From assembly GCA_026692845.1 (NCBI GenBank), contig JAPLNM010000087.1:1-64000 (forward strand): a DNA stretch of 64,000 bases, written 5' to 3'. Positions 36,205 through 56,110 of the stretch are shown here, one piece after another. The stretch is from Planctomycetota bacterium. Lineage in GTDB: Bacteria > Planctomycetota > Planctomycetia > Pirellulales > Pirellulaceae. Both the position numbers and the translations under genes were made by a program. The stretch's first letter is position 1, and each line of letters begins with the position of its first letter. The notes beneath the pieces were generated by a model that was not told where the DNA came from, searched no databases, and worked only from the letters and a program-made list of their open reading frames with translations.

Positions 36205-36531
36205 GCACCTTTGTTTTCCCTGGGATGTTTTCCCTGGGATGTTTTCCCTGGAATGTTTTCCCTGGAATGTTTTCCCTGGGACTTTCGCAGGCAGGAAGAC
36301 CGCGCAGGATCCGACCGAGCGCGGGAACTATTGGGCGTTTGCCCAAGCGACCTGCGAGCCGACTCAGGACCCGCCCTGCTGCGGCTTAGTCAACGTCAGC
36401 TTTTGCAATTCTGTTGATTCGAGTGTCCTCAAAGGGCTCAATCTTGATTATATTAGAGGACCAACGCCGGCTGATTCGCCAGCACTGCTGTTGGTCCAGT
36501 TCCACTTTTCTTCGAAAGCACCGCAATTCTC
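36205..36531. other. Leader of the ExbB/ExbD gene cluster
   Basis: A 327-base region between the DUF1559 gene and exbB containing the 14-bp tandem repeat and then ordinary sequence with an AT-rich patch near 36440-36455 that could be part of a promoter. No gene is visible; overlapping open frames here are low-complexity translations of the repeat. Confidence 0.6.
36212..36281. repeat. Five 14-bp tandem repeats
   Basis: Five units of TGTTTTCCCTGGRA (three end GGGA, two end GGAA), starting 8 bases after the DUF1559 stop. The two variant units are adjacent in the middle, suggesting expansion after a single base change. Confidence 0.95.
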
Positions 36532-37251
36532 ATGCAAGTTCATGCGGAAGTTCTAAGTCGAGTCCCATTGTTTTGCACTCCGATCGGGGACGCCTCGGAA
36601 GTGTTCAACATCGTCGGCCAGTTGTCCTACGTCGCCCTGGCGGCCGTTGCTCTCTGGGGGATATACTACGTTTTCTTGGTTCTAACCCGAGTCAACGCCA
36701 AGCGGTTCAAGTCCGAAGCGTTGCAAGACGAGTTTGTCGGCTCGATCGAAGAAGACCTCCGACGCGGCAATTTCGACGCGGTCATCGGCAAGTGCGAAGG
36801 AAACCGCAAGGCCCTTCCGATGATGGTCTCCTACCTTTGCAAACACCGCTCGTTTGGCTTCAACAAAGTTCGTCAGTTGACTCTCGATCGATTCCAACGC
36901 GATGTCATCGCGGATCTCGATTACAGCATCGCTTGGATTGTCACCGTGATCAAAACCGCCCCGATGCTTGGGCTCTTCGGTACGGTCGTCGGGATGATGG
37001 GTGCGTTCGGTAAGTTGGCTTCTGCGACCAACGTCAATCCAACGGACCTTGCAGGTGACATTCGCGTTGCGTTGGAAACGACCGCCATCGGGCTTACTAT
37101 CGCCATCCCGATGGTTATGGCGATGGCCACCATCCACAACCGCATCCGGCACATGCAGGATCTGGTCGGATCGGGTTTGGCCCAAGTCCTCGAGGCTGCC
37201 AAGGTCGGGATGGCCCGCGAAGAGCAACGGAGCGTCCGCCAAAGCGCCTAG
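36532..37251 (+). CDS. exbB: MotA/TolQ/ExbB proton channel family protein
   Basis: 239 residues with three membrane segments: about 22-46 (VGQLSYVALAAVALWGIYYVFLVL), about 133-156 (AWIVTVIKTAPMLGLFGTVVGMM) and about 175-198 (ALETTAIGLTIAIPMVMAMATIH). The GLFGTVVGMMGAF and TTAIGLTIAIPMV blocks are diagnostic of the family. With the two ExbD proteins it should form a proton-driven motor in the inner membrane. It is the first of eight packed genes; the following gene starts 58 bases after its stop. Confidence 0.93.
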   Translation: MQVHAEVLSRVPLFCTPIGDASEVFNIVGQLSYVALAAVALWGIYYVFLVLTRVNAKRFKSEALQDEFVGSIEEDLRRGNFDAVIGKCEGNRKALPMMVSYLCKHRSFGFNKVRQLTLDRFQRDVIADLDYSIAWIVTVIKTAPMLGLFGTVVGMMGAFGKLASATNVNPTDLAGDIRVALETTAIGLTIAIPMVMAMATIHNRIRHMQDLVGSGLAQVLEAAKVGMAREEQRSVRQSA

Positions 37252-37309
37252 TCTAAGATCTGTGCGTCCCTCCGATAGCTTGAGCCAAGTCCAACAACCA
37301 CCCAACGCG

Positions 37310-37855
37310 ATGGATCCAACAGAAGACAACCTCGATAGCCAGTCCGGGTCAAACCATGCCTCGGACGTTCAAGCTCTCGCACCTCCGGTCCTCATCGATG
37401 ACGAGCCCGAAGAGGTCACGATGCGCGAGCGACCTCCCATGGACGATGAGATGGATATCACGCCCATGATCGACATGACGTTCCTGCTGCTGATCTTCTT
37501 TATCTTGACTTCCAAAATGACCGGCGAGAAGTCCTACGAAGTCCCCGCAGCGAAAAACGGAAGCTCGATTGCCACGAAGAACTGCGTGATGATCACCGTG
37601 CAACGAGGAAACGGCGATACCCCGTTGGTCACCAAAGAAGACGGTGGGATCTTTTCCGACGACCCCGAGCAGCAAGCCGCCGAGATCACTGAGTATGTTC
37701 AATTGCAACTCGAGACCGGTGGCAAAACCGAAGTCCTCATACGCGCCGAAGGCAACGTCACGGCCAAGCAACTCAAGAGGGTCGAGATGGCTATCGGCGA
37801 AGTCCTCGAAGAAGGCAAAATGATCAATTTGGCTGTCTCGGAGGTAGGCAAATGA
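37310..37855 (+). CDS. exbD: ExbD/TolR-family protein (first copy)
   Basis: 181 residues from the ATG at 37310; a GTG at 37262 in the same frame would add 16 residues. A 45-residue acidic cytoplasmic leader precedes the single membrane helix MDITPMIDMTFLLLIFFILTS, whose Asp55 is the proton-carrying residue of the family. The periplasmic domain follows (to residue 181) and ends in KQLKRVEMAIGEVLEEG, typical of ExbD. Longer than E. coli ExbD (141). It overlaps the second exbD by four bases (ATGA). Confidence 0.92.
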   Translation: MDPTEDNLDSQSGSNHASDVQALAPPVLIDDEPEEVTMRERPPMDDEMDITPMIDMTFLLLIFFILTSKMTGEKSYEVPAAKNGSSIATKNCVMITVQRGNGDTPLVTKEDGGIFSDDPEQQAAEITEYVQLQLETGGKTEVLIRAEGNVTAKQLKRVEMAIGEVLEEGKMINLAVSEVGK

Positions 37856-38358
37856 GCAATGTCCCTGTCCTCGATGACGAGGAAGTTCTCGAGCAGGTCA
37901 GCTTCAAGAAAAACGAGCTGCCCAAAGACGACATGGACATGACCCCGATGGTCGACGTGACGTTCCTGCTGCTGATCTTCTTCATGATCACCGCCTCGTT
38001 TTCCAGCGAAAAAGTCTTCGAGAAACCACCCCCGCTCTCGGATGCAACCAGCAGCAAACCACCCGATAAGCCACCCGATCAGTCCGATACGGTCCGGGTG
38101 CAAATCGACGAATTCAATGCTTATACAATCATCTTTTCAACCGGCGACGAACGCGAGGCAAGCAGCAAGCAAGACTTGCTCCTGGCCCTTGGCGAAGCCC
38201 GCGCCGAGGCCTCCAGCGGAAAAGAAGATGAAGTCCTAAAATTACTTGTTGATGCCCACGAAGAGTGCATCCATGCATCGATTGTCGCTGCGTTGGATGC
38301 CGGTCGCGAGGCTGGTTTTGGAAGTTTCAGTGTCTCGGTCGTCGAGGAGTTTGAGTAG
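37852..38358 (+). CDS. exbD: ExbD/TolR-family protein (second copy)
   Basis: 168 residues with the same plan: acidic leader, helix DMTPMVDVTFLLLIFFMITAS with the conserved Asp35, then a periplasmic domain (KPPPLSDATSSKPPDKPPDQ linker, then VRVQIDEFNAYTI...). It has diverged clearly from the first copy outside the helix. Two different ExbD proteins suggest a heteromeric stator. Its stop is three bases before the next ATG. Confidence 0.92.
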   Translation: MSNVPVLDDEEVLEQVSFKKNELPKDDMDMTPMVDVTFLLLIFFMITASFSSEKVFEKPPPLSDATSSKPPDKPPDQSDTVRVQIDEFNAYTIIFSTGDEREASSKQDLLLALGEARAEASSGKEDEVLKLLVDAHEECIHASIVAALDAGREAGFGSFSVSVVEEFE

Positions 38359-38361
38359 TCC

Positions 38362-41300
38362 ATGAGCGCATCGCAGTTCATCCAAATGCTCGAAAACAAA
38401 GGCCTCCTGGACCCCGAGAGTATCGTCGAACTTCAGAAAATGGTCGAGCAATCCAAGGTCCGTGTCACCCCGGAAGCCTTGGCCCGAATCCTCGTCGAAA
38501 ACGGTCAGCTCACGCGATTCCAAGCCACCAAGCTCGTCACGGAACTCAAAGATCAGCAAGAAGCCAATACGGCCAACAAGGCCGCATCGAGCCGACAACC
38601 AAACGCCACCAAGAAACCGACCAACACCGATTCGGTCGAAGACCTACTGCCTCCCGAAGAGATCGAGCAAGTCGTCGTCGAGGAGGTCCAAGAAGTCTTT
38701 GATGACTCTGTCGCTGAGGTCGTCGAGGTTGTCGAAGCCACCGAAACGCCTTCTTCAAAATCCAAACGAAAAAGCTCCAAGCAAACCGGCTCCTTACTCG
38801 ATGACGGCCTGAAGGATATCGCGGTTGCCAAAGCACCCGTGATGAAAACGAAACCCGAAAAAAGCCCATGGGAATCCTTCGGAATTCTCGGCATGGGATT
38901 CATTGTGCTGCTCCTGCTGACCCTCTTGGTGCCCCTCTATATTTGGTTCTCCCAAGGCAGCGCCAAGGAGAGTTGGGAAATCGCCGAGAACTTCTACAAA
39001 AACCGTGACTACGAACGAGCCTCCAAGCAATACGAACTTTTCGCTACAGGATTTCCAGCCGACGAAAATTCCAGCACCGCCAAAGTCAAAGGAACCTTGG
39101 CAAAAGTCCGAGAAGCCTCGGAAAAAAATGCCGACCCATCCGTCGGCCTCAAAGCCGCTCAAGAAGAACTCCCCAAAGTGGTCAACGAAGCGGGCATGTC
39201 CAACATGCGCGTCGAGATCACCGATGTGCTGCTGCGAATCGCCGAGAAGTTCATCTCCAAAGCCGACAACACGGGCGGAATCCAAGATCGCAAAACGCTC
39301 GTCACCGCGATGAACCAGCAGATGGATCTGATCCGCGACCCTCGCTACGTCGGTACCCAGGAACGCACCCAAAATGAACTTCGTATCCGACGCATCGAAG
39401 AAGACCAACAACGCGTCGTGCGAGAAATCCAGCAGAGCGAAGATCTCGATACGACCATCGCTTCGATGACCGGAACCCTTGAGGCCAAAGATGTCATCAA
39501 AACCTACGAACTCAGACGCGAACTGGTCAAGAAATATCCGATCCTCGAAGAAAATACCAAGCTTCGGGAACTCATGCTCCAAGCGACCGACGTTCAACGA
39601 ACCTCCGTCGCTAAATCCAATGCTCTCCCGGTAATGCAAGACTCTGTCTCTGCTTTCGCAGCACCCACGGCGCTGCTGACAAGCCGAGTTGGAAATCCCA
39701 TCGACTCGAATCCAGAGAATATCGCGATCCTTCGCGTCAAAGGCTCGGCGATCGCCGTAGCCGTGGCCAATGGACAAGTCCTGTGGCGCAAGTTCATCGG
39801 TCGGGATTGGACCGGCGAACCGAAACGACTCGCCGCTACGAGCGACTCCGACGCGATCGTCGCGGTCGCATCGCGTGGCACCGTCTCCCGCTTGTCCTCC
39901 AAAGAGGGTTCTGTCGTCTGGGAGTCGAAATTCCCAGAGCCAATCCTTGAACCTGCAATCGATGGCGATGATATCTTCGTTGCCACCACGGCCGGAAATG
40001 TCCACTGCTTGGACGCCATCAGCGGACAACCCCGTTGGTCCAAAAAAATCCCCCAATCGATCGATGTCGGTACCGGCGGATCACCCGGCAAACGCAAAAG
40101 GTACCTGGTCGGAAACCACTCGAACCTTTACGTCCTTAGCCGTGGGAATGGGGACTGCGATGAAGTCGTCTACCTCGGACACAACCCAGGCACCATCGCC
40201 GTTGCACCGATCTGGGTCCTGAATCAATTGATCCTCTTCGAAAACGCCGGACCCGACCACTGCTTGATGCGCGTCTACTCGACCAACGACGAAGGAACCG
40301 AACTGAAATTGGCGCAACCGCCGGTCCGCTTCCGAGGGCACGTCGTGGTCGAACCCCAAGTCGAAGGCCGCCGATTGGCAGTGGCCACCAACCTTGGAGA
40401 AATCGCAATCCTGGACGTCGAAGTGACTAATCCCAAGGAAAAAGTTACCAAAATGGTGAATCTGGTGTCTAACGAAGCGGCACCTAAGGTGACCTGGCCG
40501 CTCATGTCGGGCACCGACCTGTGGCTTGCATCGAACCGTTTGGCCTACTTCCAAATCCAAATCACAGGTCAAAAACTCAATTCGATCTGGCTCAAAGAAG
40601 ACCTCGACGAATTCACGGCGCGTCCGATGAAGCTCGGGGATGTGATCCTCCATTCTCGCGTCGTGCGAGGCAATGCAGGGGTACGCCTCGCGGCGATCAA
40701 CCCAAAGACCGGGGATGCCTATTGGGAAGCCGATATCGGTAATCCCGTCGCATCGCTGAGCCCAGGTCCCCAAGGTCTCGTAGCCGTTACGAGCCAAGCC
40801 GCGACTTTCAATGTTCCCGACGATGCCTTCGCAACCGAAAGCATCGGCCTCAAGCCGACCTTTTCGATCGAGAATATGGGACGAAACCAACGCTCGATGA
40901 CCTTCGCAAACCCGATCCGTCTTGCCGATGGCCGTAGCTTGATCCTAAACTCCGCCCAAGGAAGCCAAATGCTCCTGGTCGACCCGGCGCGCAAAAGCAC
41001 GTCGACCTCCAAGCTAGTGGTCCTGGATCTGGGCGGCTCCTACCCGATCGCCGAGTCGATTGCCGTGGGAACTTCGATTCTGGTCCCATTGGAAAACGCT
41101 CAGCTCATGATGCTCGATCCGGAAAATGGCAAACAGATCGGAACCGCATTCCAACCGACCATCTCGGCCGGTGAACGACCTGTTTGGATGAACCCGGTGC
41201 TCCTGAGCGACAAGCAATCGGTCGTCATCGCCGATCAACGCCGAAACCTCTATAAGCTTTCGACGGGCAAGCAGTTGCGACTCCTGAACGCCCAGCCGCT

Positions 41301-41823
41301 CGAGCGGGGCATCAAGGGCCGAATCGATGTGATCGACGACGTAGCTGTCGGACTCTCTCCGGGCCCCTCCGGGGACTTTTTGGATTTCTACGAATGCGGC
41401 GAGTTCAAGAAAATCGGAACCTTGAGTTTCGAGGGCCGGTTTGCTTGGGGACCCTATGCGGCCTCCAACAGCTCGCAGTCGATCGGATTGGCCCTGAGCG
41501 ATATCGAAGGTCTCGTGGCTTTCAACAGCCAAGGCAAGCAGCTTTGGAATATCCCGATGCCCCGCACGGTGCTAGTGGGCAAGCCCATTCTCGACGAGTC
41601 GGACATCCTGCTAGCGAGCACCACAGGAGAGCTTATCCGCGTCTCTATTGCAGACGGAAAAATTGTCGCCAAAACGACCGCTGGCGAACCGATCTCAGGC
41701 ACTCCACTGGTCACCCCTCAGGGCCTGCTGGTCCCGGGTGACGAAGGGACCGTGCTTCGCGTTAGGCTCCCGCTGGAAAATACGTTAATTGGAAACTCTG
41801 CAAACGGCGAGGCGAACCGATAA
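38362..41823 (+). CDS. Membrane-anchored PQQ-like beta-propeller protein
   Basis: 1153 residues. The N-terminal ~70 residues (SASQFIQMLENKGLLDPESI, ALARILVENGQLTRFQATKLV) resemble the small N-terminal module I recall from planctomycete Ser/Thr kinases. An acidic linker with many Glu/Val runs (about 90-150) leads to one membrane helix (about 174-196, LGMGFIVLLLLTLLVPLYIW). Then comes a helical, TPR-like stretch (about 205-420) and a PQQ-type repeat domain from ~450 to the end (VLWRKFIGRDW, SVVWESKFPEPILEPAIDGDDIFVAT, PRWSKKIPQ, GDAYWEADIG). It probably projects outside the membrane as a scaffold or sensor. Its TAA overlaps the next ATG by one base. Confidence 0.8.
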   Translation: MSASQFIQMLENKGLLDPESIVELQKMVEQSKVRVTPEALARILVENGQLTRFQATKLVTELKDQQEANTANKAASSRQPNATKKPTNTDSVEDLLPPEEIEQVVVEEVQEVFDDSVAEVVEVVEATETPSSKSKRKSSKQTGSLLDDGLKDIAVAKAPVMKTKPEKSPWESFGILGMGFIVLLLLTLLVPLYIWFSQGSAKESWEIAENFYKNRDYERASKQYELFATGFPADENSSTAKVKGTLAKVREASEKNADPSVGLKAAQEELPKVVNEAGMSNMRVEITDVLLRIAEKFISKADNTGGIQDRKTLVTAMNQQMDLIRDPRYVGTQERTQNELRIRRIEEDQQRVVREIQQSEDLDTTIASMTGTLEAKDVIKTYELRRELVKKYPILEENTKLRELMLQATDVQRTSVAKSNALPVMQDSVSAFAAPTALLTSRVGNPIDSNPENIAILRVKGSAIAVAVANGQVLWRKFIGRDWTGEPKRLAATSDSDAIVAVASRGTVSRLSSKEGSVVWESKFPEPILEPAIDGDDIFVATTAGNVHCLDAISGQPRWSKKIPQSIDVGTGGSPGKRKRYLVGNHSNLYVLSRGNGDCDEVVYLGHNPGTIAVAPIWVLNQLILFENAGPDHCLMRVYSTNDEGTELKLAQPPVRFRGHVVVEPQVEGRRLAVATNLGEIAILDVEVTNPKEKVTKMVNLVSNEAAPKVTWPLMSGTDLWLASNRLAYFQIQITGQKLNSIWLKEDLDEFTARPMKLGDVILHSRVVRGNAGVRLAAINPKTGDAYWEADIGNPVASLSPGPQGLVAVTSQAATFNVPDDAFATESIGLKPTFSIENMGRNQRSMTFANPIRLADGRSLILNSAQGSQMLLVDPARKSTSTSKLVVLDLGGSYPIAESIAVGTSILVPLENAQLMMLDPENGKQIGTAFQPTISAGERPVWMNPVLLSDKQSVVIADQRRNLYKLSTGKQLRLLNAQPLERGIKGRIDVIDDVAVGLSPGPSGDFLDFYECGEFKKIGTLSFEGRFAWGPYAASNSSQSIGLALSDIEGLVAFNSQGKQLWNIPMPRTVLVGKPILDESDILLASTTGELIRVSIADGKIVAKTTAGEPISGTPLVTPQGLLVPGDEGTVLRVRLPLENTLIGNSANGEANR

Positions 41824-44180
41824 TGCGGCGTTGTCTAATGGTTTGGCTCAGCATGAAAAACTCCATAGGCTTTGTTCTGCTTGCTCTGCTTGCAATACTT
41901 GCAACACAAGGAACCACACTGGCCCAGTTCGACCTCGAAAAGGCGCTTCAGGAGGTAGAAGTCCCCGGCTCGCTCATGGACGAAGAGCCCTTCGATATCG
42001 TCACGCTTAAACCCGAAGCCACGGGTCGAAGCGTCAAGCTCGCACCGATCGAGTTTGCCGATCGCAGGATTCCCACAAACGTCAAAGAGACCGACAAGCT
42101 ACAGGTCACTATTTTGCTCTTCCCAACCCGACGCTACGAAGTGGCCTGGAAGGACATCGGCAAGATATGGCTCTATGAGCAAATGATTCTCACAAGGGCC
42201 AAAAAACTCGTCGAAGAAAAGAACTTTGGCGAAGCCTTCGAGCACCTGAACTTTTTGTTCGTCAACTATCCGCAAACCCCAGGTTTGCAGATCATGCGCC
42301 AAGAATTCCTCTTCAAAAGCGCCGAGGAGATGTCTGGCCAAAACCGGCTCGCACACACCATGGCCGTACTGGAGGAACTCCAACGGTCCTTCCCAAACTT
42401 TCAACGCGAGAAGGTCCGAGGTCTGATCACTGATGTCTCCGGCAAACTCATCGAATCGTACTTTCAAAAGAAAGACCTCTCTGCGGCCCGCGCGATGATC
42501 AACAGGTTGGCCAAAGATTACAAAGACGACCCACTGCCGGTCGTCGAGCAGTGGAAGGGCAAGTTCCTTGAATTGGCCAACGAGTACAAAGCCAAAGCGA
42601 TTGAATACCGAGAGAAAAAAGAATACCTCGCCGCTCGCCGCGAAGCGACCAAAATGCTCGATATCGAGCCTCAAATCGAAGGGGGCAAGGAGCTTCTGCG
42701 GGATTTGCTCAAGGAATACCCGATCGTGAGGGTTGGAGTTTTCCAAACGGCAGATAAACCCGATACGGCTGCGATCGCCAACTGGCCAGCCTTTCGATCT
42801 GGCCAATTGATCTCCCGGCCACTTTTCGAGTTCCGAAGCACAGGGCCCGAGGGTGGCCAATACCGATTCTCCCTCGGATCGTTTCAGCAAAGCGATGATC
42901 GCCTTGAGCTCGATATGACGATCCAAAATCCAGGCCAAGTCGGGATCCCCAGCAGCCTCGATCTGTCCCAGTCCTTCCTCCGACGCGCGACGATCGGCAA
43001 GCCCGAATACGTTCCGGGTTGGGCCGCGATTTTCGATTCCGTCAGCGTCGCAGGCCCCGAACGACTCAAGATGCGCTTCCGCCGTCCCCACGTCTTGCCC
43101 CAAGCCTTCCTGCAATGGCCCATCGAAGCGATCGGCGAGGGCAATCTCCCCTTGGGCGTGCTCTACAAGCCGAAGTCCCAAGAAGGCAATACCCAACGCT
43201 TCGAATGGGCCCCAAGCAACCCCGCAGCAGACTTTCAACCCAAAGAGATCCACGAGATCCTCTACGAAGATCCCTCGCAGGCGATCAACGATCTGTTGCG
43301 AGGCGAGATCGAAGCGATCGATAGGCTATTTCCAGCCGATGCAAAAAAACTTCAAGCATCGATTGTCTCCAAAACCATCAATGTCGAATCGTATGCACTG
43401 CCCACAGTGCACATGCTCGTCCCGCGAACGTCGAACCCCTATCTCGATGACCGCGAGTTTCGACGCGCACTGCTCTATGCGATCAATCGCGAAGGGATCC
43501 TCAAAGGAGAGATTCTCGGAGGGGCTGACGCAGAGCAATCCCGAGTTATCAGTGGCCCATTCCCTCGAGGCGTCACGGAAAATGATCCCATCGCCTACGC
43601 CTACAACACCAGCGTCGAGAACCTGGCCTATGACCCGAGGCTCGCCAAAGTCCTGATGCTCATCACTAATAGCAAGCTCAAGACGCAGTATGAGAAACGA
43701 AAAGAACCTTTGCCGCCGATGCCCAAAATGACCCTCGGGGTTCCGAACTACGAAGCGGCCCGCGTGGCCGGCCAAGCCATCATCGAGCAGTGGAAGTTGA
43801 TCGGGATCCAAGCCGATCTTGCCGTGCTGGACAAAGTCCCAGAGCCCGGCCAGATGCCTAACATCGATATCCTCTACCTGACAGTCTCGATCTGGGAACC
43901 GGCTACCGATGCCGAACGTTTGTTCGGAATCGGCGGTCCTGCCCAATCGAACAACCAATTCATCGTGCAAGTCCTCGGCGGCTTGAGCAGCTCGCGCAAC
44001 TGGCGCGAAGTGCGGCAAAGCTGCCAAGACCTCCACGCCCTGGTCGCCGCCCATTTACCTGTCCTGCCCTTGTGGCAAGTCGGCGAATCCTTTGCCTATC
44101 GAGGAGAGATCAACGGCGTAACGAAAAAACCGCTGGGTCTTTATCAAGATCTCCAAAAGTGGAGGGTCCGCGCACCGTGA
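41823..44180 (+). CDS. Exported family-5 extracellular solute-binding-like protein
   Basis: 785 residues: signal peptide (about 1-35, core FVLLALLAILATQGTTLAQ; MKNS at residue 11 is an alternative start), a helical ~250-residue N-terminal part with tetratricopeptide-like spacing (AFEHLNFLFVNYPQTPG, EREKKEYLAARREATKML), then a region matching the SBP_bac_5 peptide/nickel-binding family: GVFQTADKPDTAAIANWPAFRSGQLI, LDDREFRRALLYAINREGILKGEIL and DLHALVAAHLPVLPLWQ. No ABC permease or ATPase is nearby, so it may bind or present a ligand to the ExbBD machine instead of an ABC importer. Confidence 0.8.
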   Translation: MRRCLMVWLSMKNSIGFVLLALLAILATQGTTLAQFDLEKALQEVEVPGSLMDEEPFDIVTLKPEATGRSVKLAPIEFADRRIPTNVKETDKLQVTILLFPTRRYEVAWKDIGKIWLYEQMILTRAKKLVEEKNFGEAFEHLNFLFVNYPQTPGLQIMRQEFLFKSAEEMSGQNRLAHTMAVLEELQRSFPNFQREKVRGLITDVSGKLIESYFQKKDLSAARAMINRLAKDYKDDPLPVVEQWKGKFLELANEYKAKAIEYREKKEYLAARREATKMLDIEPQIEGGKELLRDLLKEYPIVRVGVFQTADKPDTAAIANWPAFRSGQLISRPLFEFRSTGPEGGQYRFSLGSFQQSDDRLELDMTIQNPGQVGIPSSLDLSQSFLRRATIGKPEYVPGWAAIFDSVSVAGPERLKMRFRRPHVLPQAFLQWPIEAIGEGNLPLGVLYKPKSQEGNTQRFEWAPSNPAADFQPKEIHEILYEDPSQAINDLLRGEIEAIDRLFPADAKKLQASIVSKTINVESYALPTVHMLVPRTSNPYLDDREFRRALLYAINREGILKGEILGGADAEQSRVISGPFPRGVTENDPIAYAYNTSVENLAYDPRLAKVLMLITNSKLKTQYEKRKEPLPPMPKMTLGVPNYEAARVAGQAIIEQWKLIGIQADLAVLDKVPEPGQMPNIDILYLTVSIWEPATDAERLFGIGGPAQSNNQFIVQVLGGLSSSRNWREVRQSCQDLHALVAAHLPVLPLWQVGESFAYRGEINGVTKKPLGLYQDLQKWRVRAP

Positions 44181-46540
44181 TCCAAGCCATGAAAATCAAA
44201 GCTCTCGGACTGTTCCTGTTCATGCTCGTCGGATCGGCAAATATCTCCCGATCGCAAGAGAGCAAGCCCGCCAGCCCAGCAGCTAACCCAGCCAGCCCAG
44301 CCGAAGCGGCCCTGAAAATCCCATCCGGGGCTGACCAAGCCAAGTCGGCCGCATCGAGCAAAAACACGCCCGTCGAAGTTTGGGAATATTCGGCTTACAA
44401 AGCGCGCGTCTGGCTGAGCATTTCGCCAACGCTCGGCCTGAGCGAGAAGACCATGCAACTCATCGAGCGGAAAATCGCAGAGTTCGTCGATATCGAGTTC
44501 GGTGCGACCATGCAATGCGACGTTGTAGAAACTCCCGATGCGCTCTTCGGTTCGGTCCTCTACCACCTCGACGACTTGACCATCGACCAGCTCCTATCCC
44601 GCGAACTGGTGCTCATGCTCGCCAAAAGCGATGCGGCCAAAGAGGCCTTCATGGCCATGCATCCCAAGCCGAGAGTCGATCCGGCGATCGAGGAACTCAA
44701 ACAAAAAAAGAAACTCACCAAACAGCAAGAAGAGGAGCTCAAAGCCCAAGCCGAAGCACAGTCCCGCGCCGCGAGCCTCAATAGCATCCGAACCCTCGAC
44801 TCGGTCGTCGAACGGATCCCCACGATCGCCATGCTACCGCTTCAGTATGCGGCGATGCAACGCGATATTGTTCCTTACATGAACGAGGATAAATGGAAGA
44901 AGATGCAGGCGAAGCTCGATGCGAGCGAGGCCAATTCCGACGCGATTTTCGAAAACCTAAAGACCGGCAAGACCTTCGCGGCCTTGGTCCCCAAAAACGA
45001 AGCCAACCGGTTCAAAGAAGTTGCAAGATCTTTGCCAACGCGTTTCCCATGGCAACCCGAAGCGATGCTTCGCGATAAAGACAAGATCTTCTTGGTGGCC
45101 GTCGAGCAAGATGGCGAGCGAATCCGAATCCAAGTCAAAGAGCTCGATGCGTTTGTTCGCCGAATCGGACTCATGGAGACCACGACGGTTGCAAACGTAT
45201 ACGAAATACCCCACGCCGTGGCCTTCCTTCAACGCCGTTGCTTTACTCCGATGGCTCGCATCGAGGACAACGACAACAAGACCGCGGTCCTACGTGTACG
45301 CGCCAAGGGCTTGGCCACCTCCGCAGAATCCCCCGTGCATATCGGACCCGGAGATGTCCTTGCTCCCTATATCCGCCGCGACGATCTCAATGGAAACCCA
45401 ACCCAACTCCAAAATCTTGCCTTTACCTACATCGCGGTGACCGAACCGATCGATAACGCACGATTCTACGGAGCCATTTTTGCTGCAAGTCGAGGGGCAC
45501 TTGTGGCGGCCAAGAACCGTCGAACCAAACGCGTCGCGCTCAAGGTCCATCCGAACTATCCGACCACCGATCTGAAACTCGGAATACGAGCCCAGCCCAA
45601 CAGTGCCGTACCGGGTGCCGAGGTCTACCTGCGTACCCCCGGTTCCGACGACCTGAAAATAGTCGGTAGGACCGACTGGCGAGGGGTCATAGGAATTGCC
45701 AATACCGAAAATCCGACGATCACTTACGACCAACCAACCTCGAGTTCCGTCGAGATGATCGCCAGAGCCAGAGCCACAGCCATCCGACTTAAAAGCCTCA
45801 AAGAGAATCAAAGCGACTCAGGCGATTCGAACCCATCTGGCCAAGAGGATCCAGCCGTTGCGGCTGCCGCGGCCGACGATGCGGCCATCGCTGCTTCTGC
45901 CGAAGCCCTCAAGCGACGCGAACGCGCTCCCACGCGAACGATGCCGATCAAACTCCCGCTCTATCTTTACTACATCAAAAACGGTGAAACCCTCCTGGCT
46001 CGATTGCCAGTCATCACCGGCTATCGCGAACAAGAAAAAGCCGATTTGCCCGACGACCGACGTCGCTTGCAAGCCGAAGCATTCCTCAAGGGCTTGCAGG
46101 GCGAAGTTCTCGATTTGGTTGTCCGCCGCAAGATCCTCGATGCGAGAATCAAAAATAAGATCGAACAGGGAAAAAAGGATGAAGCCTTCGCGCTGCTCGA
46201 TGAGCTCAAGAAGGTCAAGAACTACGAAGGCCTCTCGTTGCAGATCCAAAACATCCTTCGACGAGCCACCTCGACCGAACAGGGACCGGTTCCTGCCCCG
46301 GTAGCAGAACGAATCGACAAGATGATCGATATGACACGGGTGCTCATGCAGCAGTATCTGCAGACCGACATCGTACGCGAACTAGAAGTCAAACTCCTCG
46401 GAGGGGCAGCTCCCTCAAGTTCCCCAAGCGAATCACCACCACCCGCACCAGCAGCTGCTCCGGCCGCACCAGCACCTGCACCAGCAGCTCCGGCGCCGCC
46501 TGCCAACAGTCCCGCAACTCCCGCACAACCAGGCGCTTAA
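44177..46540 (+). CDS. Large exported hypothetical protein with Pro/Ala-rich tail
   Basis: 787 residues from the GTG at 44177, which overlaps the previous TGA (GTGA) and has GGAGGG ten bases upstream; the ATG at 44189 would give nearly the same signal peptide (MKIKALGLFLFMLVGSANI). I recognise no domain. Features: a charged helical segment about 165-205 (EELKQKKKLTKQQEEELKAQAEAQ), a middle beta-rich part (VGRTDWRGVIGIANTENPTITY, resembling a carboxypeptidase-regulatory-like fold), a second helical region about 640-720, and a C-terminal tail of about 40 residues almost wholly Pro, Ala and Ser. Conserved position in the cluster suggests an envelope component. Confidence 0.75.
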   Translation: MIQAMKIKALGLFLFMLVGSANISRSQESKPASPAANPASPAEAALKIPSGADQAKSAASSKNTPVEVWEYSAYKARVWLSISPTLGLSEKTMQLIERKIAEFVDIEFGATMQCDVVETPDALFGSVLYHLDDLTIDQLLSRELVLMLAKSDAAKEAFMAMHPKPRVDPAIEELKQKKKLTKQQEEELKAQAEAQSRAASLNSIRTLDSVVERIPTIAMLPLQYAAMQRDIVPYMNEDKWKKMQAKLDASEANSDAIFENLKTGKTFAALVPKNEANRFKEVARSLPTRFPWQPEAMLRDKDKIFLVAVEQDGERIRIQVKELDAFVRRIGLMETTTVANVYEIPHAVAFLQRRCFTPMARIEDNDNKTAVLRVRAKGLATSAESPVHIGPGDVLAPYIRRDDLNGNPTQLQNLAFTYIAVTEPIDNARFYGAIFAASRGALVAAKNRRTKRVALKVHPNYPTTDLKLGIRAQPNSAVPGAEVYLRTPGSDDLKIVGRTDWRGVIGIANTENPTITYDQPTSSSVEMIARARATAIRLKSLKENQSDSGDSNPSGQEDPAVAAAAADDAAIAASAEALKRRERAPTRTMPIKLPLYLYYIKNGETLLARLPVITGYREQEKADLPDDRRRLQAEAFLKGLQGEVLDLVVRRKILDARIKNKIEQGKKDEAFALLDELKKVKNYEGLSLQIQNILRRATSTEQGPVPAPVAERIDKMIDMTRVLMQQYLQTDIVRELEVKLLGGAAPSSSPSESPPPAPAAAPAAPAPAPAAPAPPANSPATPAQPGA

Positions 46541-46542
46541 TC

Positions 46543-46926
46543 ATGCCAGTACGCTCCGTTCTCGATGTCGGCAATTGCAATCCGGACCATTCGGCCATCT
46601 CGGCGATGCTCCGCAAACATTTCGATGTCGAAATCCTCAGATCCGATCAATGGTCCGACACCCTCGCGATCCTCGAACGTCAGCCTGTCGACTTGATCTT
46701 GATCAATCGCAAGCTCGATATCGACTACAGCGATGGAATGGAGATTCTTCGCCAGATCAAGCAATCCGAAGCCTTCCGAGACATACCTGTGATGCTCATT
46801 ACCAACTATGCTGAGCATCAGCAGCAGGCCGTAGCCCAAGGTGCAATTCTTGGGTTTGGGAAATTGGAACTCCGTTCCCCAGAGACCCTCGAGCGCCTTC
46901 GGTCGATACTTGAACCAAGCCAATGA
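46543..46926 (+). CDS. Degenerate receiver-domain protein
   Basis: 127 residues with the receiver fold (DLILINRKLDIDYSDGMEILRQIKQ, IPVMLITNYA, GFGKLELRSPETLERLRSIL), but key residues are lost: the phospho-acceptor position is Asn55 and the N-terminal acidic pair is replaced in VGNCNPDH. Thr87 and Lys107 remain. It is therefore unlikely to be phosphorylated in the normal way and may act as a constitutive binding module. The ATG is two bases after the previous stop and its own TGA overlaps the fur ATG (ATGA). Confidence 0.85.
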   Translation: MPVRSVLDVGNCNPDHSAISAMLRKHFDVEILRSDQWSDTLAILERQPVDLILINRKLDIDYSDGMEILRQIKQSEAFRDIPVMLITNYAEHQQQAVAQGAILGFGKLELRSPETLERLRSILEPSQ

Positions 46927-47384
46927 ACACGAAAAAGAAAACCAACATCGACGACGTCAACGAAGCGCGCAAGATGCTCAAGGATGCTGGTCTGCGCAGC
47001 ACCCCAGCCCGCATCTCGGTGATCAACGCATTGAAAAAGTCGAGCCGACCTCAGACCCACGCGCAATTGGCCGATCAGCTTGTCCCCTTGGGGTTCGATA
47101 AAGCCACCGTCTTTCGCAATTTGACCGACTTGGCCGAGGCCGAACTGGTCTTGAGAACCGAGCTTGGGGATCACGTTTGGCGGTTCGAAATGCGGGACCC
47201 CAAGCACGATCGCAGCAGCCATCCTCACTTTGTCTGCGTCGATTGCGGCAGCGTCACTTGCATCGACGAGATGGCACTGCCAACACCGACGGTCCGGCGG
47301 AATCTGAATATTGCCAGGATCAGCGAAGTGCTTGTCAAAGGGCACTGCGGGGACTGCGACGCCTCGCGGGCCGTAAGCCGATAA
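46923..47384 (+). CDS. fur: Fur-family metalloregulator
   Basis: 153 residues: N-terminal winged helix (AGLRSTPARISVINALKKSSRPQTHAQLADQL, recognition helix DKATVFRNLTDLAEAEL) and C-terminal metal/dimer domain with SSHPHFVCVDCGSVTC and HCGDC, the two CxxC pairs that hold structural zinc. It could be Fur, Zur or PerR; the motifs do not decide. It is the last gene of the ExbB cluster and coupled to the pseudo-receiver gene, so it likely controls a metal-linked response that includes this cluster. Confidence 0.92.
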   Translation: MNTKKKTNIDDVNEARKMLKDAGLRSTPARISVINALKKSSRPQTHAQLADQLVPLGFDKATVFRNLTDLAEAELVLRTELGDHVWRFEMRDPKHDRSSHPHFVCVDCGSVTCIDEMALPTPTVRRNLNIARISEVLVKGHCGDCDASRAVSR

Positions 47385-48627: not shown

Positions 48628-49902
48628 ATGTCGACAGCCCCTAAGCTCGACGACGGCGATCCGGCGTTGAAGCCGGCCCATATCGAGACTTCAGTCCCCG
48701 CCGACTCCGAGCGAGCCACGAGCTCCTTAAGGGGAGCGAAGCCTTGGTGGTACCGCCTGGTTTCGTTCCTCCTGCTTGCCGGACTTGCCGTCGCAGGCTA
48801 CGCGACTCGCGATCGATGGGAGCCGGTCCTCGAGGGCTGGATTCGACCGGCTGCAGCCAATCGTCCCAAGCCTCGGCCGCCTGTGGTGTCGATCGCCGAA
48901 GCCAAGCAGGAATCCATCCCACAATTCATCAATTGCCTCGGAACCGTTACTGCCTTCAACAGCGTTACCCTCAAGAGCCGTGTCGACGGAGAACTCGTCG
49001 AGGTGGCTTTCCAAGAAGGTCAGATGGTCCAAGAGGGGCAACTCCTTGCCCGCATCGACTCGCGCACCTTCGATGCGGCATTGAATCAAGCCAAGGGCCA
49101 ATTGCAACGGGATCTTGCAGCCCTAGAATTGGCACGGCTCAATGTCGATCGATTGAAGAATCTGCCGGCCGGAGGAGCCCTCTCGGAGCAAGAGCGAGAC
49201 GAACTCCAAGCCGTCTACAAGCAGGCCCAGGCCTTGGTCGATGTCGATCGAGCGCTGGTCGCCAATGCCGAGCTCCAAGTCGCCTACTGCAACATCATCG
49301 CACCGATCAGCGGACGCGTTGGGCTCAGGCAAGTCGATCAAGGCAACATGATCCAGGCCAACAATCCCACCGGCATCGTGGTCATCACCCAACTCCAACC
49401 GATCTCGGTGGTCTTCTCGATCCCGCAAGATGAGATCCTCCGAGTCCAAAAGCAGCTTTCGGAAAGTTCGCTCGTTCCTGTCTTGGCCTTTGACCGTACC
49501 TTCCAAAATCAGTTGGCACAAGGAACCCTGACTGCAATAGACAACCAGGTCGATCAGACCACCGGAACCCTGAGGCTCAAAGCCACCTTCGAGAACCAAG
49601 AATCCCTGCTGTTTCCGAATCAATTCGTCAACATCCGATTGCTGATCAAGCAATGGAGCGACGCGATCGTGATCCCTTCCTCAGCGGTCCAACGCGGGGT
49701 GGACTTTCAGTATGTCTATGTGGTCCAAAACGACAATGAAACGGTCGATATCGCCAAGGTCCAAGTCGCCTTTAGCGAAGCGGGCCGTTCGGTGATCGCT
49801 CAAGGCCTCCAGGCTGGCGATCGCGTGGTCATCGAGGGAACCGACAAATTGCAACCCAAGGGGTCGATCTCGCTGCCGGGAGCAGGTCCCAAGTCGCGAT
49901 GA
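48628..49902 (+). CDS. RND efflux membrane fusion protein (MdtA-like)
   Basis: 424 residues. A cytoplasmic leader, a membrane anchor (about 42-62, WYRLVSFLLLAGLAVAGYA), then the lipoyl-hairpin-barrel plan: NCLGTVTAFNSVTLKSRVDGELVEVAFQEGQMVQEGQLLARID, the alpha hairpin (QAKGQLQRDLAALELARLNVDRLKNL), the returning IIAPISGRVGLRQVDQGNMIQ, and membrane-proximal segments ending in GDRVVIEGTDKLQPKG. These blocks match MdtA rather than AcrA. Its stop overlaps the start of the first pump gene by four bases (ATGA). Confidence 0.92.
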   Translation: MSTAPKLDDGDPALKPAHIETSVPADSERATSSLRGAKPWWYRLVSFLLLAGLAVAGYATRDRWEPVLEGWIRPAAANRPKPRPPVVSIAEAKQESIPQFINCLGTVTAFNSVTLKSRVDGELVEVAFQEGQMVQEGQLLARIDSRTFDAALNQAKGQLQRDLAALELARLNVDRLKNLPAGGALSEQERDELQAVYKQAQALVDVDRALVANAELQVAYCNIIAPISGRVGLRQVDQGNMIQANNPTGIVVITQLQPISVVFSIPQDEILRVQKQLSESSLVPVLAFDRTFQNQLAQGTLTAIDNQVDQTTGTLRLKATFENQESLLFPNQFVNIRLLIKQWSDAIVIPSSAVQRGVDFQYVYVVQNDNETVDIAKVQVAFSEAGRSVIAQGLQAGDRVVIEGTDKLQPKGSISLPGAGPKSR

Positions 49903-52900
49903 ACATCTCGAAGCTCTTCATCCTCAGGCCCATCGCCACGACCCTGCTGATGGCCGCGATCATCCTCAGTGGCTCGATCGCTTATCGCCAACTGCCCGTC
50001 GCTGCGCTTCCCCAAGTCGATTACCCAACGATCCAGGTCGTCACGTTTTATCCAGGTGCAGGGCCTGAAGTGATGGTCTCCTCGGTGACGGCCCCTCTGG
50101 AAAAACAATTCGGTCAAATACCAGGTCTGTCCCAAATGACCAGTTCGAGCACCCAAGGTTGCTCCGTCATTACGCTCCGATTTGTTCTGGATTTGGATAT
50201 CGATATCGCCGTCCAGCAGGTACAAGCCTCGATCAATGTCGCAGGAAACTTCCTACCGAGAGAGCTCCCGAACCCGCCGATCTATTCCAAGGTCAATCCG
50301 GCCGATGCACCCGTACTGACCCTGTCGCTGTCCTCGAGCACCATTCCGCTCCCAAAGATTCAAGACCTTGCCGACACGCGACTGGCTCAAAAGCTCTCCC
50401 AAGTCAAAGGGGTCGGTCAGGTCAGTCTCACCGGTGGGCAAAAACCCGCCATCCGAGTCCAAGCCAACCCGACGAGTCTTTCGGCCATGGGCTTGACGCT
50501 CGACGATCTGCGCACCGCATTGACGGCCGCGAATGTCAATCAAGCCAAAGGGAGCTTTGATGGCCCCAAGCAATCGATCATCATCGGAGCCAACGACCAA
50601 CTCTTCACCGCCGAGCAATTTCGCGAATTGATCGTGGCCTATCGCAACAATGCGCCGGTGAAGCTTTCCGAGGTCGCCAAGGTCATCGATGATGTCGAAA
50701 ACGTCCGACAGGCCGCTTGGAGAGACACCACACCGAGTGTCCTTCTGAACATCCAGCGTCAACCCGGAGCGAACATAATCGAAGTGGTCGATCGCATCCA
50801 GGCGATGCTCCCGCAGCTCAAGGAAGCCCTCCCTGCGGACCTCCGAGTGGATGTCCTGACCGACCGTACGACGACCATTCGGGCGTCGGTCGAAAGCGTT
50901 CAGCACGAGCTATTGCTGACCATCGGATTGGTCGTTTTGGTCATCTACTCGTTCTTGCACAGTTTTCGAGCCACCATCATTCCCAGCGCGGCCGTTCCTC
51001 TTTCGATTGTGGGAACCTTTGGGATCATGTACCTGATGGGCTATACGCTCAACAACTTGACCCTCATGGCTCTGACGATCTCAACAGGGTTTGTCGTCGA
51101 TGATGCGATCGTCATGATCGAAAACATCATGCGGTACGTCGAGGACGGCATGGACCCGCTCCCGGCATCTCTCAAAGGTGCATCGGAGATCGGTTTTACG
51201 ATCGTTTCCTTGAGCGTATCGCTTGTGGCCGTTTTGATTCCACTGCTGTTTATGGGGGATGTCATCGGCAGGCTTTTTCGCGAATTTGCCGTGACGCTTA
51301 GCGTGACGATTTTTGTATCGGCAATCGTCTCCTTGACACTCACACCGATGATGTGCGCACTGCTGCTCAAAACCATTCCCAAGCAAGTCGGCAGCAGTCG
51401 CGATCACGGTACGCAAGGCTGGCTATTCATCGCCTTGCTGCAGTTCTACGAAACCACCTTGAGATGGACCCTTAAACACCAAGGCTTGACCATGCTGGTC
51501 TTCCTGGCAACCCTGGCCTCGACGGTTTTTCTCTACATCCAAGTCCCTAAAGGGTTCTTTCCCATCCAGGACACCGGCGTGATCCTGGGCATCACTCAGA
51601 CCGATCAAGACACTTCGTTTGCACGAATGCATGCCAAGCAAGCCGCACTCAACGCGGTTCTATGTGCCGATCCGGCCGTCGAAAGCATCGCAAGTTTCAT
51701 CGGCATCGATAGCATCAACCTGACGCTCAACAGCGGTCGGATTCAGATCAACCTCAAACCCCACCACGAGCGTCACGAATCGATCCAAAAAGTAATGGCG
51801 AGGCTCTCGCAAAATGCCTCTGCGGTCGCAGGTATCCAACTTTTTATGCAACCCGTCCAGGACCTATCCGTCGAGTCCCGCGTTTCGCGCACCCAGTACC
51901 AATACTCCCTCGAAACACCCGATCCAGAGCAACTCAACGAGTGGGTTCCCAAACTCGTCTCGAAACTCAAAGACCGACCCGAACTCCAAGACGTCGCCAG
52001 CGATCAAGCCGTCTTGGGCCGCGAAGCAAAACTCGTCATCGATCGCGACAGTGCCTCGCGTCTGGGCGTTACACCCTTGGTTATCGATGATGCTCTCTAC
52101 AACGCCTTCGGACAGCGCCAAGTTTCGACGATCTTCACCCAGCTGAATCAATACCGCGTCGTTTTAGAAGTGGCTCCAGAGTTTCGCGATTCTCTGAGCG
52201 ATCTCGGAGCCCTCTACGTCAAAACCAACACGGGCCGACCAGCACCCCTGGAGTCGCTCACCAAAATCGAATACCAAAATGCGCCCCTGGCGATCAATCA
52301 CCAAGGCCAATTTCCTGTTGTGACGGTATCTTTCAACCTCGCCCCAGGAGTCTCGCTCGGCCAAGCCGTCGAAGCGGTCGAGGACACCGTCGGCGAGATC
52401 CAAATGCCCGCCGGAATCGTTCGCTCGTTTCAAGGCTCCGCCGAAGCTTATCAGCGTTCCCTCTCGACGACCCCATTGCTGATCCTAGCCGCGTTGATCA
52501 CCGTCTACATCGTCCTGGGGGTCCTCTACGAAAGCTTTGTCCATCCGCTGACGATCCTCTCGACGCTCCCATCGGCAGGGCTCGGTGCGCTGGTGGCCCT
52601 GATCCTGTTTCGCCTGGACTTGAGCATCATCGCTCTGATCGGAATTATCTTGCTCATCGGTATCGTCAAAAAGAATGCGATCATGATGATCGACTTTGCG
52701 CTAGAAGCCCAACGCAATCAAGGACTCGAAGCCGAAGATGCCATCTTTCACGCCTGCTTGCTGCGCCTCCGACCGATCTTGATGACCACCATGGCCGCTC
52801 TGCTCGGGGCCGTGCCTCTTGCCTTCAGCGGGGGCGTTGGCTCCGAAATCCGACAACCCCTCGGTATCTGCATCATCGGTGGCTTGATCTTCAGCCAAGC

Positions 52901-52979
52901 CCTGACGCTCTACACAACCCCGGTGATCTATCTTTGGTTCGATGCCCTAGGACGAAGGAAAGGAAAACCCGAGGCATGA
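49899..52979 (+). CDS. RND multidrug efflux permease (MdtB-like)
   Basis: 1026-residue HAE1-type pump with 12 predicted helices in two halves. The start (MNISKLFILRPIATTLLMAAIILSG) is the classic N-terminus. The proton relay is intact: GFVVDDAIVMIEN in TM4 (paired Asp) and GIVKKNAIMMIDFA in TM10 (Lys). Porter-domain blocks PVAALPQVDYPTIQV and SQVKGVGQVSLTGG are present. It is coupled at both ends to neighbours, and with the next gene probably forms a heterotrimeric pump like MdtB2C. Confidence 0.94.
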   Translation: MNISKLFILRPIATTLLMAAIILSGSIAYRQLPVAALPQVDYPTIQVVTFYPGAGPEVMVSSVTAPLEKQFGQIPGLSQMTSSSTQGCSVITLRFVLDLDIDIAVQQVQASINVAGNFLPRELPNPPIYSKVNPADAPVLTLSLSSSTIPLPKIQDLADTRLAQKLSQVKGVGQVSLTGGQKPAIRVQANPTSLSAMGLTLDDLRTALTAANVNQAKGSFDGPKQSIIIGANDQLFTAEQFRELIVAYRNNAPVKLSEVAKVIDDVENVRQAAWRDTTPSVLLNIQRQPGANIIEVVDRIQAMLPQLKEALPADLRVDVLTDRTTTIRASVESVQHELLLTIGLVVLVIYSFLHSFRATIIPSAAVPLSIVGTFGIMYLMGYTLNNLTLMALTISTGFVVDDAIVMIENIMRYVEDGMDPLPASLKGASEIGFTIVSLSVSLVAVLIPLLFMGDVIGRLFREFAVTLSVTIFVSAIVSLTLTPMMCALLLKTIPKQVGSSRDHGTQGWLFIALLQFYETTLRWTLKHQGLTMLVFLATLASTVFLYIQVPKGFFPIQDTGVILGITQTDQDTSFARMHAKQAALNAVLCADPAVESIASFIGIDSINLTLNSGRIQINLKPHHERHESIQKVMARLSQNASAVAGIQLFMQPVQDLSVESRVSRTQYQYSLETPDPEQLNEWVPKLVSKLKDRPELQDVASDQAVLGREAKLVIDRDSASRLGVTPLVIDDALYNAFGQRQVSTIFTQLNQYRVVLEVAPEFRDSLSDLGALYVKTNTGRPAPLESLTKIEYQNAPLAINHQGQFPVVTVSFNLAPGVSLGQAVEAVEDTVGEIQMPAGIVRSFQGSAEAYQRSLSTTPLLILAALITVYIVLGVLYESFVHPLTILSTLPSAGLGALVALILFRLDLSIIALIGIILLIGIVKKNAIMMIDFALEAQRNQGLEAEDAIFHACLLRLRPILMTTMAALLGAVPLAFSGGVGSEIRQPLGICIIGGLIFSQALTLYTTPVIYLWFDALGRRKGKPEA

Positions 52980-55900: not shown

Positions 55901-56110
55901 CGCGGCGACGGTGCCGAACTGCGCCAACCCCTGGGAATCGCAATCGTCGGCGGACTGATCGTCAGCCAATTCGTCACGCTCTTTACCACGCCGGTGATCT
56001 ACCTGTACATGGACGGCTTGTGGGCCTTTTTTCAATCGCGCAAATCGACCCGAACTGTGGTAGAATCCATTCCGCCTGCTTCTTATTCCCTCCCTTCCCA
56101 AGGAACGTAA
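52976..56110 (+). CDS. RND multidrug efflux permease (MdtC-like)
   Basis: 1044 residues from the ATG at 52976, which overlaps the previous TGA; an upstream in-frame ATG lies inside the preceding gene and adds residues unlike the family. N-terminus FSEAFIRRPVGTTLLTVAITLSG. The proton relay is present: GFVVDDAIVVTEN and GIVKKNAIMMIDFA. A Gly-rich loop (STGGGGPGGGGTNN) sits in the second porter half. Very similar in plan to the preceding gene. No TolC-like outer-membrane factor follows; the next gene, 4 bases on, is a Gfo/Idh oxidoreductase. Confidence 0.94.
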   Translation: MMTGHGSNFSEAFIRRPVGTTLLTVAITLSGLIGYFLLPVAPLPQVEFPTISVSANLPGASPETMASAVATPLERSLSRIAGVTEMTSNSTLGSTSITLQFELDRDVNAAAREVQAAINAARSQLPPTLPNNPSYRKVNPSDSPIMLLTLVSEIYSKPQMYELASTLIQQKLSQISGVGQVFATGASNPAVRIELNPNVLNQMQIGLEDVRAAIGSSNANRPKGVLEEGPVQWSLNTTDQLMTAQDYRPLMIAYRNGAPVRLADVANVTDSLEDIRNFALADGRPSISVLIFRQPGANIIETIENVKSVLPQLRAQLPAAIDLDIGMDRSTTIRASLLEVQKTLLISILLVIVVVYVFLRDIRATIVPTIAVPVSLIGTFGVMYLLGYSLDNLSLMALTISTGFVVDDAIVVTENISRYLEKGLKPLDAAIKGAGEIGFTVVSITLSLIAVFIPILLMRGVIGLLLQEFAVTLSIAILISLVISLTTTPMLCALLLKAHRVNENSNRYWMENAYGRVLDVVLKFPGWTMVALALIVAFNGYLYVKVAKGFFPQQDTGRLVGNIVADQGTSFQAMVSLCEKFANAVGDEQAIDRVLVSTGGGGPGGGGTNNARMFVTLKPLDQRKQTIDELIAAIRKKTSGISGANLFMQAVQDLRIGGRPSGAQYQYTLRGGDLKELNEWTLKLISAMKKLPEITDVNTDQQDKGQLSRLVIQRDLAAVLGLDIATIDNTLYDAFGQRPVSTIYLPMNQRRVVMTLDRDYIKGPESLKSIYIRTRNNTQVPLQDLYSLESRNTSLSVAHSGLFPSSTISFNLSPGSALGDVVPIIKTVSAEIGMPSSIQGNFQGTAQAFQDSLSNQPLLILAALVAVYLVLGILYESLIHPITILSTLPSAGVGAILGLIVFRMDLNIIGMIGILLLIGIVKKNAIMMIDFAIALRKDRGWGPREAIREACLRRFRPITMTTLAAILGGIPLALGRGDGAELRQPLGIAIVGGLIVSQFVTLFTTPVIYLYMDGLWAFFQSRKSTRTVVESIPPASYSLPSQGT

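Follow-up and report, generated by a model that had tools for sequence, protein, structure and literature searches.

What might a proton motor of the ExbB/ExbD type drive when its genes are followed by genes for three large extracytoplasmic proteins? The question is raised by positions 36532-47384 of contig JAPLNM010000087.1 (assembly GCA_026692845.1), from a member of the Pirellulaceae in the phylum Planctomycetota. We have analyzed the first 64,000 nucleotides of the contig, which we term the window. We conclude that the first six genes of this locus probably encode a single dedicated machine that spans the envelope and is driven by protons, that it occurs in much of the class Planctomycetia, and that it may act in a Tol-like rather than a Ton-like manner. 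That they form one dedicated proton-driven system is highly probable; the Tol-like role itself, in holding or remodeling the envelope, is a tentative assignment, and is our first choice with import as the second. The system is a variant of the 5:2 motors with a new effector set, and it is widespread in the class.

The locus and its genes

The genome is a draft of 5.24 Mb that is 96.2% complete, and its closest named relatives are metagenome-assembled genomes of Pirellula, in the class Planctomycetia. The locus comprises eight co-directional open reading frames on the + strand, listed here with their Pfam matches or other support.

36532..37251, + strand: exbB, 239 amino acids (aa); MotA_ExbB 4.6e-22 (Pfam), in a cluster-specific clade
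37310..37855, + strand: first exbD copy (ExbD1), 181 aa from the ATG at 37310, motif TPMiD; ExbD 5.3e-15
37852..38358, + strand: second exbD copy (ExbD2), 168 aa, motif TPMvDV; ExbD 3.5e-18
38362..41823, + strand: membrane-anchored PQQ-propeller protein (PQQ), 1153 aa; PQQ_2 1.5e-23, with the transmembrane (TM) segment taken from hydropathy
41823..44180, + strand: exported SBP_5-domain protein with a TPR-like part (SBP), 785 aa; SBP_bac_5 6.6e-18
44177..46540, + strand: H787, exported, no recognized fold, 787 aa from a GTG; conserved position downstream of SBP
46543..46926, + strand: conserved pseudo-receiver, 127 aa, a genus-level accessory; Response_reg 1.8e-07
46923..47384, + strand: Fur-family regulator, 153 aa, a genus-level accessory; FUR 1.3e-12

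The coordinates and junctions of a first-pass annotation, made from the sequence alone, were reproduced. It had described eight genes spaced by 3 bases or fewer from the second gene on, with overlaps of 1 or 4 bases at four junctions, and this is what we find; its gene labels agree with the domain searches, in which the window proteins matched MotA_ExbB, ExbD (twice), PQQ_2, SBP_bac_5, Response_reg and FUR. A gap of 58 bases separates exbB from exbD1, which overlaps exbD2 by 4 bases. There are then 3 bases before the PQQ gene, which overlaps the SBP gene by 1 base, and the SBP gene overlaps H787, with its GTG start, by 4 bases. The receiver gene begins after a gap of 2 bases and overlaps the Fur gene by 4. 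The eight-gene cluster is real.

Conservation of a six-gene core

The order exbB-exbD-exbD-PQQ-SBP-H787 is syntenic in much of the Planctomycetia, in two orders. All six genes are present in the same order and on the same strand in 26 of 32 loci (31 fetched loci and the window). Among 43 named loci the core is complete in 29, a count that includes two loci in which H787 is cut (L063 and L081) and two in which the PQQ frame is split (L067 and L080). The remaining 14 comprise 11 that are cut by a contig end, two with no adjacent motor (L074 and L075) and one with only an exbD fragment (L071). Since this gene order recurs far beyond the close relatives, it is not a product of chance.

The SBP gene was matched in 51 of 60 relatives. 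Its profile gave matches in 205 of the 392 genomes of a phylum sample, and those listed from outside the class are mostly weak and partial, as ordinary SBP_5 proteins would give. The profile of H787 discriminates much better, matching in 54 of the 392 genomes, and in 49 of these 54 H787 lies directly downstream of SBP when the positions are read by eye. The five genomes that break this adjacency (G414, G422, G120, G262 and G268) have weaker, partial matches.

A motor with two ExbD lineages

The cluster encodes ExbB- and ExbD-family subunits with conserved residues that we take to be the proton-site aspartate and the channel threonine, as expected of a 5:2 proton motor. In ExbB, T138, K141, P144, G147, T151, T183 and T184 are invariant in 20 of 20 aligned sequences, and in ExbD the TPM and D of the motif are conserved at 90% or above across 81 rows. 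The window ExbB is longer than 25 other homologues (239 aa compared with 210-222), so its real start may be internal. In genome G339 the second ExbD of the cluster (L161:2952-3701) shows a weak N-terminal match to a zinc ribbon.

Loci were taken as assessable when at least 5.1 kb was available upstream of SBP, giving 49 loci outside the genus of the window and 8 inside it, with L074 standing for genome G021. Four loci that are cut off upstream (L031, L052, L170 and L105) and three that contain SBP only (L118-L120) were excluded; in L105 the motor triad instead follows immediately after H787. The triad is found upstream of PQQ in 43 of the 49 loci outside the genus and in 6 of the 8 inside. Of the eight assessable loci with no motor alongside, four belong to genomes (G021, G023, G054 and G386) that encode an exbB-exbD-exbD triad at another site, and the ExbBs of these triads score 254, 260, 243 and 184 bits, respectively. 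All other ExbB matches in the nine genomes searched are at or below 91 bits. In a tree of 45 ExbB sequences, 29 of them cluster rows, the four displaced ExbBs fall inside the cluster clade (32 rows, support 100/99), which the long-branched ExbB of L041 joins at 96/84. Eleven other ExbBs and Escherichia coli TolQ lie outside it. Since the cluster ExbBs and those of the genomes with moved motors group in one clade, the motor looks dedicated. Another of the eight loci, L038, represents a second copy within genome G046.

A second tree was built from the first- and second-position exbD genes of 38 loci. All but one of the first-position ExbDs (37/38) form a single clade with support of 96/96, and all 38 second-position ExbDs lie on the other side of the tree, where the sole displaced first-position sequence is a row filling 31% of the columns. 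Two ExbD lineages divided by position naturally suggest an ExbD1/ExbD2 heterodimer. Elsewhere in the genome of the window, ExbD genes occur at four more loci.

The three extracytoplasmic proteins

The PQQ protein of the window comprises a small cytoplasmic domain, a TM segment at residues 174-192, a helical repeat region and a propeller beginning at about residue 460. PQQ_2 was matched in all 18 homologues scanned. In Pirellulales the cytoplasmic part is a small domain that looks helical; in G339 it is FHA-like (Yop-YscD_cpl 2e-4, under the curated cut-off), and it appears FHA-like by eye in L114. The possibility that this domain is shared with kinases was rejected on finding no other copy in the window's genome by a 64-residue single-sequence search, which is a weak test.

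A propeller with helical repeats could also be read as an aid to secretion or outer-membrane-protein assembly, in which a BamB-like propeller and BamD-like helices would guide exported proteins using the energy of the motor. In addition to the PQQ_2/BamB match, 3 of the 18 homologues have weak YfiO/BamD-type matches, and bamA is the sole essential bam gene of Planctopirus limnophila, the others being non-essential, not found or multiplied (PMC10632474). However, the BamB model gives 77.7 bits on the PQQ protein, well below the equivalog cut-off of 285.2 bits, and nothing links the module to BamA, though no search for one was made. PQQ-type propellers are, moreover, common. We consider such an assembly function improbable.

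An N-terminal hydrophobic segment is evident from hydropathy in both SBP and H787. The SBP_bac_5 domain forms the C-terminal half of SBP and was matched in all 33 homologues, some of which also match TPR models. We take R355 and D408 of DppA, and R413 and D419 of OppA, to be ligand anchors; in a MAFFT alignment at low identity these are kept in none of the 33 homologues. The positions are occupied by V/H/F/Y/T/L, by A/S or another residue and by Y/F/L, and never by the anchor residue. No ABC permease or ATPase gene is found among the eight genes of the cluster, and the six PF00528 matches in the genome all lie off the window's contig. SBP thus resembles DppA and OppA in that its C-terminal half belongs to the SBP_5 family, but differs in its TPR-like N-terminal part, its replaced anchors and the lack of linked permease genes. 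H787 has no meaningful Pfam or PDB sequence match, its one Pfam match being of low complexity, and many homologues outside the genus have about 440-540 aa compared with 787 aa in the window.

Genes upstream of exbB in relatives

The flanking genes of 36 loci were compared. A family of about 300 aa is encoded upstream of exbB on the same strand in 29 of them, and a second, of about 565 aa, lies above it in 16, some of the 36 loci ending before its place. Among the assessable loci the shorter family is present in 44 of the 49 outside the genus and the longer in 26, and neither is present in any of the 8 inside. The ~300-aa family was not found in L058, L111, L115, L121 and L161, and a lenient search of the loci without it, together with those of the genus, found none. 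In L054, for example, the shorter gene (L054:2853-3626) stands upstream of exbB, with the longer at L054:1026-2720.

The ~300-aa protein begins with a short cytoplasmic stretch, followed by one hydrophobic segment (in 65 of 68 members) and a Gly/Pro-rich linker, and ends in a conserved domain. We take this layout to be that of TonB and TolA. The Ser-x3-His motif, presumably of the TonB type, occurs only in the divergent L041. There is no meaningful Pfam, NCBIfam or PDB match to the family and no match to a TonB family. A relationship to TolA was rejected, given an hhalign probability of 0.3% with the single E. coli TolA, and no vWA match was obtained in 29 upstream proteins scanned. The TonB/TolA topology is also described in PMC12204202. 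The ~565-aa family combines an SQHop_cyclase-like toroid with HEAT repeats in the four members scanned.

To judge from these features, the upstream protein is a candidate for a transducer of the classical style in most relatives, one that is not at this locus in the genus of the window. The first-pass annotation had placed the large extracytoplasmic proteins in the stead of TonB. As a general design this does not hold, most relatives having a protein of TonB topology upstream of exbB.

Two ExbD loci elsewhere in the window's genome (L153:3774-6389 and L154:4051-5979) adjoin proteins with weak SQHop_cyclase-like matches, and the pairing of such a protein with a proton motor may be a wider pattern.

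Ton and Tol partners

TonB_C was not found in any of 27 genomes of the genus, including that of the window, some of these genomes being only 76-90% complete. TonB was rejected as a hidden partner on this count, and the concern that a TonB encoded elsewhere might serve the motor finds no support in the genus. In the relatives overall TonB_C is present in 17 of 60, comprising 13 of 51 SBP-positive and 4 of 9 SBP-negative genomes. As it is spread over both groups, the module does not follow TonB. TolB_N was found in none of the 60 relatives, with a positive E. coli control, and membership of Tol-Pal was rejected. None of the eight window proteins matches vWA, TolA or Pal.

The role that we rank second is nutrient import of the TonB kind. 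The SBP-fold protein would bind its substrate, a solute or oligomer, at the surface or in the periplasm, and the motor would drive this substrate through an outer-membrane channel encoded at an unlinked site. Import is the usual task of SBP_5 proteins, and the domain is universal among the homologues scanned. A single-TM protein of TonB-like topology adjoins exbB in most relatives, and the TonB receptor barrel occurs in 6 of 20 relatives, including two genomes of the genus. Yet the peptide anchors are replaced throughout, the module has no permease or receptor gene, the genome of the window has no TonB receptor barrel, and the TonB-topology protein matches no TonB family of Pfam or NCBIfam. 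We consider import possible but rather unlikely. Of the two functions offered by the first-pass annotation, uptake is disfavored by the lack of peptide anchors and of a co-encoded permease or receptor, and envelope remodeling stands as a possibility.

One system or two operons

It could be argued that a general-purpose ExbBD motor and three envelope proteins are encoded by unrelated operons that happen to lie side by side. The two halves are apart in four genomes, and G055 and G367 keep the effector genes while the ExbBs of their ExbB-ExbD-ExbD triads belong to another clade. But the ExbBs of the four separated motors still group with those of the cluster and the adjacency persists beyond one order, and we consider a chance arrangement of this sort very unlikely. 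The proposal that exbB, the two exbD genes and the three large proteins act as one proton-driven unit is strengthened by their linkage in almost every assessable locus from two orders, by the retention of the cluster ExbB subfamily in the four genomes where the motor genes have moved, and by the lack of a TonB_C match in the 27 genus genomes searched. It had been suggested that the idea would fail if the large proteins were scattered and unlinked to the motor in related genomes. In the window's order and in the other order sampled they are not, and it is in family f23 that scattering is seen.

A number of observations, including those on G055 and G367, weigh against our reading. In f23, G414 and G422 have divergent SBP and H787 matches that lie apart, and there is no H787 match in G406. 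No SBP match was found in 9 of the 60 relatives, G035 has SBP and H787 with no PQQ within 5.9 kb upstream, and the PQQ protein of G055 is short. E. coli TolR lies on the second-ExbD side of the tree, so that the second lineage may not be exclusive. Exactly one TM segment was found in only 60 of 91 PQQ-protein homologues, and by that measure, a crude hydropathy scan, the topology is not uniform. The TM lacks the TonB/TolA-type histidine in all but 3 of the 91, and was rejected as a TonB-type helix. Finally, the TonB receptor barrel is present in 2 of the 13 genus genomes searched (G002 and G009).

A possible mechanism and its relation to known systems

We infer an ExbD1/ExbD2 heterodimer, the formation of a complex and a transfer of force with the envelope as its target. 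An ExbB ring with the heterodimer would pass protons and so move the periplasmic domains of the ExbDs. The membrane-anchored TPR/propeller protein would receive the force, together in most relatives with the single-TM protein of TonB-like topology encoded upstream. From there the force would reach the exported SBP-fold/TPR protein and H787, which might act on the outer membrane or the cell wall. In a bolder version many Planctomycetia would have replaced Tol-Pal. The ExbD heterodimer would pull an inner-membrane propeller and two soluble proteins, the SBP fold would be repurposed to force or cell-wall binding, and the cytoplasmic input domain (FHA-like in some, small and helical in Pirellulales) would serve as a switch. 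This is speculative, and we hold it with little confidence.

In the Tol-Pal system the TolB propeller and the TPR protein CpoB are located in the periplasm. The cluster resembles it in having a TolQR-type proton motor with periplasmic propeller and TPR parts, as in TolB and CpoB, but its propeller is of the PQQ_2 type and membrane anchored, it has two ExbDs, and TolB_N was not found in the 60 relatives. The likeness to TonB-ExbB-ExbD lies in the motor and, for most relatives, in the topology of the upstream protein. It differs in the absence of TonB_C from the 27 genus genomes searched, and in an upstream protein that has no TonB match and carries Ser-x3-His in a single divergent locus. The closest precedent that we found is provided by the vWA force-transducer systems of the Planctomycetes-Verrucomicrobia-Chlamydiae (PVC) group, described in PMC12204202. 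Like these, the cluster has a heterologous ExbD/TolR pair with one ExbB/TolQ; it differs in having no vWA match and in having the propeller, the SBP-fold protein and H787. An ExbB/ExbD/ExbD locus on contig 28 of the window's genome (L156) lies near a 1078-aa TPR protein, and resembles the PVC arrangement of PMC12204202.

No description of this gene set was found in the open-licence PubMed Central literature, judged mostly from search listings and with subscription papers and preprints outside its scope. The diversity of such motors is treated in PMC12505986, and this gene set does not occur in its accessible passages. The exbB/exbD genes of Rhodopirellula baltica are salt-induced according to PMC2754498, and may or may not belong to this cluster. 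PMC10632474 describes the planctomycete envelope as debated and the species studied as having lost ftsZ; ExbB, ExbD and Tol do not appear in its main text. The widespread module, a motor with three dedicated effectors, provides a concrete gene set for testing how the planctomycete envelope is energized, and the relatives that have it gave no TolB_N match and often no TonB_C match.

Receiver, Fur and regulation

The receiver matches Response_reg at 31.7 bits, with a cut-off of 30.2. It is degenerate, having Asn at the expected position of the phospho-acceptor Asp, as assigned from receiver motifs, in 20 of 20 genus sequences, some from the same genome. Since this Asn is invariant and the motif highly conserved, the protein looks like a maintained pseudo-receiver on the evidence of the alignment.

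Among the fetched loci the receiver and Fur genes are found only in the genus of the window. They are a local regulatory addition of that genus and not part of the core, in contrast to their earlier description as cluster members. General metal control, also proposed earlier, is therefore unsupported, and Fur or metal control was rejected as a general feature. No Fur-box-like palindrome is visible in an alignment of eight exbB upstream regions from the genus; a TTATATT stretch is present in seven of the eight. A sigma-70 scan gave nothing.

Neighboring features

Upstream of exbB, right after a gene for a 541-aa DUF1559 protein, a CCCTGGGATGTTTT-like unit is repeated in tandem about four times at positions 36215-36285 of the window; the repeat was not seen in seven relatives aligned. 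Downstream of the cluster, positions 48628-56110 encode an HlyD-type adaptor and two consecutive AcrB-family RND (resistance-nodulation-division) pumps. A FeoB ferrous iron transporter is encoded at 14019-16262, about 20 kb away from the cluster.

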